Source: Candidatus Peregrinibacteria bacterium
GTDB taxonomy: Bacteria; Patescibacteriota; Gracilibacteria; Peribacterales; Peribacteraceae
Length of the DNA stretch: 47,982 nt
Direction: 5' to 3'
Assembly (NCBI GenBank): GCA_016196225.1
Contig: JACPXZ010000024.1
Span: forward strand, 1-47,982
Under the pieces are notes generated by a model. It was not told the DNA's origin and did not search any database. It saw only the letters and a program-made list of their open reading frames with translations. The translations under genes and the position numbers were made by a program. Positions 1,745-4,698 of this stretch are shown piece by piece (the first letter of the stretch is position 1; each line of letters starts with the position of its first letter).

Positions 1745-1786
1745 TGACCCCCTCTCCCTCACCCTCCCCCTTAAAAGGGGGAGGGA
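1745..1786. repeat. Family A GC-rich hairpin repeat, copy 2
   Basis: A near-perfect stem, CCCTCCCCCTT / AAGGGGGAGGG, preceded by a CCCCCTCTCCCTCA run. It contains the stop codon and last few codons of the glycosyltransferase on the minus strand and could also act as a hairpin between that gene and rpsP. Confidence 0.75.
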
Positions 1787-2778
1787 AAACGGCGCGCCGC
1801 GCCTCCGACTGATCGATGGGCAACGAGTATAGCGGCAGTTTTTTGTGCCGCATTCTGCCAGTCGTATAATCGGATTGGCGAGGGGCGCGGTGGCGGGTTT
1901 TTCATAGCTTGGGTAAAGGCATTCACTGTTGGTTCGATAAGTGTGGCGTGTCCCTTTGTTACTTCCGGGATTGCGCCGCAGTTGCTCGCAATGACAGGGC
2001 AGCCGCAGGCAAGTGCTTCGACCGCCGGGAGGCAGAATCCTTCGGCAAGGGAGGCGGTAACGAAGGCGGTGGAGGCAGAGTAGAGGGCGGGGAGATCGTG
2101 ATCGGGGACAGTACCGATTGACTCCGGAATGCAGAGTAAAGAAACACCGGAAAGGTGAGCTGCTTTTTTGAGGAGGGGAACATTTTTATGATCTTTGTTA
2201 CTCCCGACATAGAGGAAGAAGGATTTTTTGATGTTGTATTTTTGGAGAACGCGCTGCTGCTCTTCCGATGATTTTGGAGAAAAAGAAGACTGTACGCCTT
2301 CGTGTATGACAGAAATATGGCGATCCCCGTAGTGTTTTCGGATATCATTTGCGGTATATTCGCTCACAGCGATGATGTGATCGCTATTCCGAATTGCATG
2401 ATTCATCTGCCATCGATAGGCGAGGCGTTTCCATAATAGTGCTTCGTGCGGGAATTCGTGGAGAATAAGATCATGGATCGTGACGATAAAAGGAATAGAG
2501 CAACGAAGGGGAACATTAAAATGAGGAGAGAGGAAGAAGTCGATGCTGGATTGTTTGATGATGCCCGGAAAATATATTTGTTCACGGATAGAGTAGTGAG
2601 GAAAGTCTGCAATTTTCAAAATACAGTTTTTAGGGAGCCATACTTCGTTTTGAGAATGAACGAACAATACATATTCGATTCCATCACTGCGTTTAAGGAG
2701 ATGCGTCACGAGTTCGCGCGTATAGCGGCCAAGACCGGAAGGGGTAGCCGCAAATCGACAGTCGATCCCAATGCGCAT
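1771..2778 (-). CDS. GT4-family glycosyltransferase
   Basis: 335 residues from the ATG at 2778. It starts MRIGIDCRFAATPSGLGRYT, the usual N-terminus of GT4 glycosyltransferases. The nucleotide-sugar domain follows, with FLYVGSNKDHKNV at about residue 190 and the donor-binding motif AEGFCLPAVEALACGCPVIA at about residues 250-270. It probably transfers a sugar to a polysaccharide or lipid carrier at the inner face of the membrane; donor and acceptor are unknown. The C-terminus (RRFPSPF) and stop are encoded by a family A repeat, so the original end was probably replaced. A TATAGT box lies 6 bases before the start. It is divergent from prmC, with starts 20 bases apart. Confidence 0.88.
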   Translation of the reverse strand: MRIGIDCRFAATPSGLGRYTRELVTHLLKRSDGIEYVLFVHSQNEVWLPKNCILKIADFPHYSIREQIYFPGIIKQSSIDFFLSPHFNVPLRCSIPFIVTIHDLILHEFPHEALLWKRLAYRWQMNHAIRNSDHIIAVSEYTANDIRKHYGDRHISVIHEGVQSSFSPKSSEEQQRVLQKYNIKKSFFLYVGSNKDHKNVPLLKKAAHLSGVSLLCIPESIGTVPDHDLPALYSASTAFVTASLAEGFCLPAVEALACGCPVIASNCGAIPEVTKGHATLIEPTVNAFTQAMKNPPPRPSPIRLYDWQNAAQKTAAILVAHRSVGGAARRFPSPF

Positions 2779-2798
2779 AAAGGTACTATACGGGTATA
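2778..2798. promoter_or_regulatory. Shared back-to-back -10 box, glycosyltransferase / prmC
   Basis: TACTATA at 2784-2790 reads TATAGTA on the other strand. It places TACTAT 8 bases before the prmC ATG (2798) and TATAGT 6 bases before the glycosyltransferase ATG (2778). Both transcripts would be leaderless. Confidence 0.55.
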
Positions 2799-3583
2799 TG
2801 GATCCATTGGATATTGAGGTGTTAAAGGCGCATGTGCTTAAAAAGGATCGATCATGGGTGGTTGCACATCCGGAATATGTCCTTACCAAAAGGGAGCAAT
2901 TGAAACTTGAAGATTGTTTGAAGAGGCGACGAGCAGGGGAGCCGGTGGCGTACATTACGGGTGAAAAAGAATTCTACGGGAGAATGTTTTTTGTGGATTC
3001 GCGGGTGTTGATCCCGAGGCCGAGTACGGAGGGGTTGATAGAAATGGTTTTAGAAAAACCCAAAGTGCAAATAATTAAAACAATTGATGAGGGAATTATT
3101 GGGACATTTATTCAACTACAGCGTACCAATGAACAAGTAACCACTCTTGTCGATATCGGTACCGGTAGCGGTTGCATTGCCATTACTCTCACATGTGAAC
3201 GTTCCGATGCGCGTATTATTGCAACGGATATTAATGCAGATGCATTAGAAGTGGCGAAAGAGAATGCCAAGCGTCACAATGTTTTGGATCGGGTTGAATT
3301 CCGAAAAGGGAATTTACTTGAACCGGTTATGGATTTGAATGAGCCATTTATCATTGTTTCGAATCCGCCGTATGTTTCCAAGGATTCAAACAACCCTCAC
3401 CTTAATCCTCTCTCTTCAAAGGGAGAGGAGAAATTTTACGAACCTCCTCTTGCTCTCTTCGCCGGCCCCAAGGGGACGGATGTATTGATCCCATTGGTAG
3501 AGCAAGCAAAAAAACATCCCTATTGTATGGGGGTATTTCTGGAATGTCAGGAGGATCAGATTCCGCTATTATCAAATATGTGA
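2798..3583 (+). CDS. prmC: Peptide chain release factor N5-glutamine methyltransferase
   Basis: 261 residues. By family it methylates the Gln of the GGQ motif in release factors RF1/RF2, using S-adenosylmethionine. Visible motifs: GEPVAYITGEKEFYG and the IPRPSTE block (substrate side), the SAM motif VDIGTGSGCIAITL, and the catalytic NPPY within VSNPPYV. Directly after NPPYV there is an insert (NNPHLNPLSSKGEEK) encoded by a hairpin repeat (family A). The C-terminus ends about 20-25 residues earlier than usual, lacking the final conserved strand. ATG 2798 is preferred because a TACTAT box lies 8 bases upstream; an in-frame ATG at 2771 overlaps the divergent start. It overlaps the purA reading frame. 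Confidence 0.88.
   Translation: MDPLDIEVLKAHVLKKDRSWVVAHPEYVLTKREQLKLEDCLKRRRAGEPVAYITGEKEFYGRMFFVDSRVLIPRPSTEGLIEMVLEKPKVQIIKTIDEGIIGTFIQLQRTNEQVTTLVDIGTGSGCIAITLTCERSDARIIATDINADALEVAKENAKRHNVLDRVEFRKGNLLEPVMDLNEPFIIVSNPPYVSKDSNNPHLNPLSSKGEEKFYEPPLALFAGPKGTDVLIPLVEQAKKHPYCMGVFLECQEDQIPLLSNM
3391..3435. repeat. Family A hairpin repeat, copy 3, inside prmC
   Basis: The inverted repeat TCCTCTCTCTT / AAGGGAGAGGA (3406-3429, one G-T pair) is preceded by AACCCTCACCTTAA. It is in frame within prmC and encodes a peptide absent from homologues such as E. coli PrmC. Confidence 0.75.
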
Positions 3584-4698
3584 AGGACGTTGCGGATTCT
3601 CTTGGGCAAGTGTGTGCTGTGATCGGTGCTCAGTGGGGGGATGAGGGGAAGGGGAAACTCATTGATCTCCTTGCGGGAGAATTCGACGTCGTCGCACGGG
3701 CATGCGGAGGGGCCAATGCGGGACATACGGTGATTGTGAATGGCAAAAAGCATGTATTTCATCTTCTTCCATCAGGCGCACTGCACCCCAATGTGCAAGT
3801 GGTACTCGGAGCAGGAATGGTGATCGACGTTTCGACCTTGCTTGAAGAAATTGAAGTTCTTAAAAAAGCCGGTGTTGATATTCTTCCCCGTCTCCACATT
3901 TCTGCCGCCGCCCACATCGTGACGCAGGAGCATAAGGAACGAGATGCCAAGATTGAAGAGGAGCGTTCCAATAAAATCGGAACAACAAAGAGAGGGATCG
4001 GGCCGGCATATGGGGATAAGGCATTGAGAGTGGGGATGAGGATGGAATCCAATCTCCAATCTCCAATCTCTAATTGCCTTGTGTCGAACATCGCGGAATT
4101 TATGAATGATCTGATAAAAAACAAAAAACGTATTCTCATTGAGGGGGCGCAGGGAGTACTGCTTGATATCGATCATGGGACATATCCTTATGTGACATCG
4201 AGTTCGACGACGGTGATGGGGGCATTGCAGGGATTGGGGCTACCGCCAAAAGTGTTACATTCTTGTATTGGCGTTGCGAAGGCCTACTGCACACGGGTGG
4301 GGGAGGGGCCGTTTGCAGCAGAAATCCAGGGTGATACGGCCAATCGCATTCGGGAAAGAGGAGGAGAATATGGGGCCACGACCGGACGACCACGGCGGGT
4401 AGGGTGGCTCTCGATCCCGGATCTTCAATATGCCGCACTATTGAATGGGTTCACCTGCTGGAATATCACGAAGTTGGATGTGCTGGATGAGGAGAAAATG
4501 ATTTCGGTAGAAGTGGAGAGAGGAAGGTTGGGGGAATTCCCCGGTTGGCAAACCTCGACTTCCGGCATCACTTCATTCGAAAAGTTGCCTCAACAAGCGC
4601 AGTCATATATTCAGTTTATCGAAGAAAAAACCGGGATCCCTGCTCTCTGGATTGGTACCGGACCGGATCGGAGAGATATGATTGTCAAATCGATCTAA
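3544..4698 (+). CDS. purA: Adenylosuccinate synthetase
   Basis: 384 residues from ATG 3544; GTG 3580 (GTGA overlap with prmC) or GTG 3610 would give an N-terminus closer to the family. It ligates IMP and aspartate using GTP, the first step from IMP to AMP. Visible: VIGAQWGDEGKGK (GTP loop), NAGHTV, GTTKRGIGPAYGDKALRVG, EGAQGVLLDIDHGTYPYVTS, GATTGRPRR and the C-terminal GTGPDRRDM. The enzyme is shorter than the usual 430 residues: the segment between LRVG and the EGAQG motif, and the part after KLDVLD, are both reduced. The first gap is filled by an iterated repeat (4045-4078) giving MESNLQSPISN. It follows prmC with overlap. Confidence 0.95.
   Translation: MSGGSDSAIIKYVKDVADSLGQVCAVIGAQWGDEGKGKLIDLLAGEFDVVARACGGANAGHTVIVNGKKHVFHLLPSGALHPNVQVVLGAGMVIDVSTLLEEIEVLKKAGVDILPRLHISAAAHIVTQEHKERDAKIEEERSNKIGTTKRGIGPAYGDKALRVGMRMESNLQSPISNCLVSNIAEFMNDLIKNKKRILIEGAQGVLLDIDHGTYPYVTSSSTTVMGALQGLGLPPKVLHSCIGVAKAYCTRVGEGPFAAEIQGDTANRIRERGGEYGATTGRPRRVGWLSIPDLQYAALLNGFTCWNITKLDVLDEEKMISVEVERGRLGEFPGWQTSTSGITSFEKLPQQAQSYIQFIEEKTGIPALWIGTGPDRRDMIVKSI
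4045..4078. repeat. Family B iterated repeat inside purA
   Basis: The word TCCAATC is repeated (CCAATCTCCAATCTCCAATC), in frame, encoding NLQSPISN within purA where homologues have unrelated sequence. Confidence 0.65.

Follow-up and report, generated by a model that had tools for sequence, protein, structure and literature searches.

A symmetric -10 element as a likely two-way promoter between divergent glycosyltransferase and prmC genes in the Peribacteraceae

Some bacterial promoters are read in both directions from one -10 element. In such bidirectional promoters, the two directions share a symmetric -10 with reciprocal -7 and -11 positions, each strand carries T at -18, and starts 18 bp apart are the commonest geometry (PMC10268837). 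Most descriptions of bidirectional -10 elements derive from start-site mapping in cultured bacteria, and the second RNA is often non-coding. Five bidirectional promoters tested in E. coli were too weak for competition between directions at basal activity, and competition emerged once one direction was strengthened (PMC12825309). Leaderless genes form a separate class, in which a TANNNT signal precedes the start codon by ~12 bp (PMC3160421). Neither start-site mapping nor leaderless promoters in Peribacteria were found in the open-access literature searched.

The locus described here comes from a 1.085-Mb genome whose family is taken as Candidatus Peribacteraceae. The window, the whole stretch of 47,982 nucleotides that was analysed, holds a glycosyltransferase gene and prmC in divergent orientation. 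As judged from sequence, it is likely that a minimal bidirectional sigma-70-type promoter fills the 19 bp between their start codons and that both transcripts are leaderless or nearly so.

The site and its flanking genes

The + strand of the window reads ATGCGCATAAAGGTACTATACGGGTATATG at 2771-2800. The glycosyltransferase ATG (2778, - strand) and the prmC ATG (2798, + strand) lie 20 bases apart and enclose the heptamer TACTATA, which is TATAGTA on the opposite strand. TACTAT ends 8 nt from the prmC ATG, and TATAGT ends 6 nt from the glycosyltransferase ATG. An earlier, sequence-only reading of this DNA had described this arrangement and the ATGCGCAT palindrome beside it; both are read directly in the sequence, and Pfam matches support its naming of the two genes. 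The features are as follows.

1771..2778, - strand: glycosyltransferase gene (Pfam Glyco_transf_4 and Glycos_transf_1), with its ATG at 2778
2771-2778, both strands: ATGCGCAT palindrome, which contains the glycosyltransferase ATG; the + strand ATG within it, at 2771, is probably not used
2778, - strand: predicted transcription start at the A of the glycosyltransferase ATG (leaderless), 6 nt from TATAGT, in keeping with a genome-wide peak at 6 nt
2784-2790, both strands: symmetric -10 heptamer TACTATA, with a counterpart in 36/36 close family loci
2784-2789, + strand: hexamer TACTAT, part of the heptamer
2790-2785, - strand: hexamer TATAGT, part of the heptamer
2796, + strand: predicted transcription start, giving an RNA that begins AUAUGG with a 2-nt leader, placed by the 6-nt rule in 36/36 relatives and the 18-bp geometry
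2798..3583, + strand: prmC, release factor methyltransferase (Pfam PrmC_N and MTS), with its ATG at 2798
3523..4698, + strand: purA, adenylosuccinate synthetase (Pfam), given as the longest open frame downstream of prmC

Within the one -10 element, A-11 and T-7 are reciprocal on both strands, as they are in 36/36 close relatives. The first T of TANNNT lies 12 nt upstream of the - strand start codon and 14 nt upstream of the + strand start codon. A -35 hexamer was found for neither direction in the window, the best match having 3/6 bases. Taken alone, the window sequence is only suggestive of a shared box; TANNNTA with 6-8 nt on both sides occurs in ~1.3% of random 19-mers of the window's composition. 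Comparison with the family lifts the shared box far beyond chance.

The glycosyltransferase, of the family-4/group-1 type according to Pfam, has homologues whose N-termini align at MRIGIDCRF, which supports a start at ATG 2778. On the other side of the box, many relatives also have purA next to prmC in the same orientation. In the window, the longest purA open frame overlaps the end of prmC by ~60 nt (3523-3583), and purA itself probably begins downstream of 3523.

The window PrmC is ~11 N-terminal codons shorter than its family relatives, in which the aligned start lies 33 nt further upstream; the closest relative has a PrmC only 56% identical to that of the window, and a scan of genome contigs gave none closer. 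Deletion of the original first prmC codons with the box left in place would account for the 8-nt spacing in the window. Deletion between two ATGCGCAT copies with removal of an ancestral box was also considered, and was dropped because the box sits in the family position and codon loss at the prmC start fits better.

Conservation in the family

The start of prmC was readable in 70 family loci, in which it was set by protein alignment and independently of the box (for nearly all of them, 33 nt ahead of the aligned position). The glycosyltransferase gene and prmC are divergent in 59 of the 70. In 37 loci from 23 genera, the window included, the start codons are 17-23 nt apart; the relatives mostly have 17-19 nt, with a mode of exactly 18 (16 loci). 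The sequence-only reading had named conservation of the palindromic box as a check, and the box is indeed kept across the 23 genera. This recurrence indicates that the divergent layout with a shared box is real and under selection.

Base frequencies at the box were counted in the 36 close loci other than the window. All of these have the -10 hexamer at exactly 6 nt upstream of the prmC ATG. A-11 and T-7 occur without exception (36/36 each), T-10 and A-8 are present in 32/36 and 31/36, and -9 varies freely. The heptamer is mostly YATNATA. In the direction of the glycosyltransferase, the hexamer is TATNAT in most close loci and lies 6-12 nt from the start, most often 7. Because this spacing varies, the glycosyltransferase side would be near-leaderless, and not strictly leaderless, in many close loci. 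In the direction of prmC, only 15/36 loci have T as the first base and 19/36 have C, and C at this position is without enrichment in the ordinary leaderless boxes of two genomes. Given how often C occurs here, roughly half of the relatives may have only a weak promoter towards prmC.

Position -6 points to two-way reading. An A at -6 pairs with the first T of the glycosyltransferase-directed hexamer and is required by the hexamer of the opposite strand only. If the box served prmC alone, -6 should therefore resemble other leaderless boxes, but A is found in 34/36 close loci (21/22 genera) versus 30/117 ordinary leaderless boxes in the two genomes (Fisher 5e-14; genus-collapsed 6e-12; the loci are related, so these values are guides). 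The two exceptions, both in genus g5, have a second hexamer, TACACT, which lies 6 nt from the glycosyltransferase start and overlaps the first. Loci L077 and L080 of this genus have two overlapping hexamers in place of the symmetric box; their prmC N-terminus is also shortened, yet the box lies exactly 6 nt from the new start codon.

The box is absent in 7/7 loci (genera g7, g16 and g28) in which a same-strand open frame of 382-387 codons lies upstream and runs into prmC with an ATGA overlap. This loss of the box when prmC lies in an operon is established by the sequences, as are the layout and its conservation. When the pair is distant or not divergent and a prmC box is present at 6 nt, the next base is A, A, C, G and G (L010, L021, L012, L020 and L076, respectively), and it is A in L018, where the partner gene is absent from the contig. 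The separated glycosyltransferases of L032, L073 and L078 have their own TANNNT or a near-match at 6 nt. Five loci of genus g32 (L011, L037, L061, L068 and L069) have a glycosyltransferase-prmC gap of 34-36 nt, which mostly carries CCATTGTTCCATTGT-like repeats in place of a TATNATA box. Judged across the family alignments, a single symmetric -10 element is most likely shared by the two genes.

Leaderless setting and alternative readings

Stretches of 548 kb from the window genome (G000), about half of it, and 400 kb from a relative (G029) were read. TANNNT has a sharp peak exactly 6 nt before ATG candidates (52 versus ~9 in G000 and 45 versus ~6 in G029), with an excess that tails off to ~11 nt, and Shine-Dalgarno-like words rise little before ATG in either genome. 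Genes with a divergent upstream neighbour have a box at 6-8 nt in 43/134 and 36/94 cases, compared with 9 and 4 such genes at a control distance; these fractions are rough, given simple gene calls and ambiguous start codons. Boxes of the leaderless type are common in both genomes, which suggests that leaderless transcription is widespread in the Peribacteraceae.

In the window, 2796 is the probable start of the + strand RNA, which leaves two bases ahead of the ATG. A strictly leaderless start at 2798 is the alternative; 2796 is preferred because the family rule is 6 nt and because it yields the usual 18-bp separation. A distance of 18 bp separates the predicted starts at 2778 and 2796; each strand carries T at -18, and the complement T of 2778 is itself the -18T for a + start at 2796. 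The proposal of leaderless output on both sides fits prmC in the other close loci, where the box has leaderless spacing throughout, but would be too strict for prmC in the window, with its probable 2-nt leader, and for the glycosyltransferase side of the relatives, with its variable spacing.

Among 74 divergent pairs in the two genomes, there was no clear second shared box with 6-8 nt on both sides. In a scan for shared-box patterns, two strict patterns were matched more often than a backwards control. A systematic class of such pairs was rejected, as among the loci inspected outside glycosyltransferase/prmC only L141 and L156 are flanked on either side by open frames that reach 190 codons. 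Each is a divergent pair with a shared symmetric box, L141 (G075:C13:1298) with open frames of 320 and 194 codons and L156 (G071:C23:4990) with open frames of 375 and 307 codons. A similar box, CATGATAGGCCG, precedes an ATG in three genomes of genus g28 (L169, L170 and L171); one flank holds an open frame of 313-320 codons, and the other only a short frame.

Several other explanations of the box were weighed. Since -10 consensus sequences are inherently near-symmetric (PMC10268837), the box could be a one-way promoter whose symmetry is incidental, and the C that replaces T as the prmC-directed first base in about half of the relatives is in line with this. Against it stand the fixed 6-nt distance to prmC in all 36 close loci and the extra A at -6, which is no part of ordinary leaderless boxes in the two genomes; in addition, no conventional -35/-10 promoter was found within 2650-2950. 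A one-way promoter is accordingly considered unlikely. The box might instead be a dyad operator bound by a regulator, and longer palindromes do occur in a few loci, such as TGCTGTATCATACAGCA in L002. Outside the 7-bp core, however, four of the five flanking pairs have no excess complementarity over shuffles, and an extended dyad was rejected for want of general complementarity; the outermost pair (-17/-1) does show an excess (14 versus 8.2 in shuffles). With its constant position relative to the prmC start codon and its match to the genome-wide leaderless -10 signal, the box is most improbable as an operator in place of a promoter element.

A further alternative removes the box from the intergenic space altogether. 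The sequence-only reading had pointed out that ATGCGCAT offers an ATG on each strand, and the - strand ATG is the glycosyltransferase start. If prmC in turn began at ATG 2771, the two starts would overlap head to head, and TACTATA would be coding sequence with a chance resemblance to a -10. The resulting MRIK start does resemble the N-termini of some relatives, for example MRIKDAVASEYV in L007. In the family N-terminal model, however, the extension from 2771 scores 118.4 versus a random mean of 118.9, and 70% of random extensions score as well as its 9 residues. Moreover, the window sequence has no -10 box 6-8 nt upstream of 2771, and the window box is located where the relatives have theirs. 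A prmC start at 2771 is thus very unlikely, and a two-way promoter ahead of ATG 2798 is the preferred reading.

The proposed two-way promoter and its known counterparts

In the proposed mechanism, the housekeeping RNA polymerase would bind the pseudo-symmetric TACTATA in either orientation. In one orientation, transcription would begin at the prmC start codon or no more than a few bases from it, with purA to follow; in the opposite orientation, it would begin at the glycosyltransferase start codon or just upstream of it. Both RNAs would be leaderless or near-leaderless and would not need a ribosome-binding site. We infer that the site is transcribed, that the RNAs start exactly at 2778 and 2796, and that the leaderless mRNAs are translated. 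Polymerase could occupy only one orientation at once, although weak promoters need not couple expression levels.

The sequence-only reading had gone further and predicted mutually exclusive expression of the two genes. Polymerase binding should be sterically exclusive at a shared box, but exclusive expression is overstated, as the five weak E. coli bidirectional promoters showed no competition at basal activity (PMC12825309). The effect depends on promoter strength, which makes mutually exclusive expression an unsafe prediction.

It is possible, though we hold this only tentatively, that the site is a conserved twin leaderless promoter in which selection keeps the essential-type gene prmC (with purA) and the glycosyltransferase gene on one polymerase site. 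The 7-bp two-way -10 would then be the core of the entire intergenic region, an equally tentative suggestion. Selected sharing of one polymerase site, if true, would couple or buffer expression of both genes. A site kept across 23 genera, with an mRNA expected both ways and a promoter that makes up the whole gap, would show that selection can maintain such symmetry. The wider prediction is that leaderless transcription is widespread across this uncultured lineage of the candidate phyla.

Several described systems share parts of this arrangement. The divergent promoters of the EcoRV restriction-modification system also have mutually exclusive polymerase sites, but there two promoters of a regulated pair overlap in part (PMC5333194), whereas here a single -10 would be common to two housekeeping-type genes. 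The leaderless class has the same signal at the same distance as that enriched in G000 and G029, but was described for single genes (PMC3160421), whereas here one box would be read both ways. The bidirectional promoters of Warman, Grainger and colleagues likewise share a -10 and do not require strong -35 hexamers (PMC10268837, PMC12825309). The present site differs from them in that both predicted RNAs are mRNAs that start at or near a start codon, that the promoter would take up all of the space between the two genes, and that 23 genera of a single family have kept it. The shared box appears to be a compact, conserved variant of a kind of promoter known from other bacteria.
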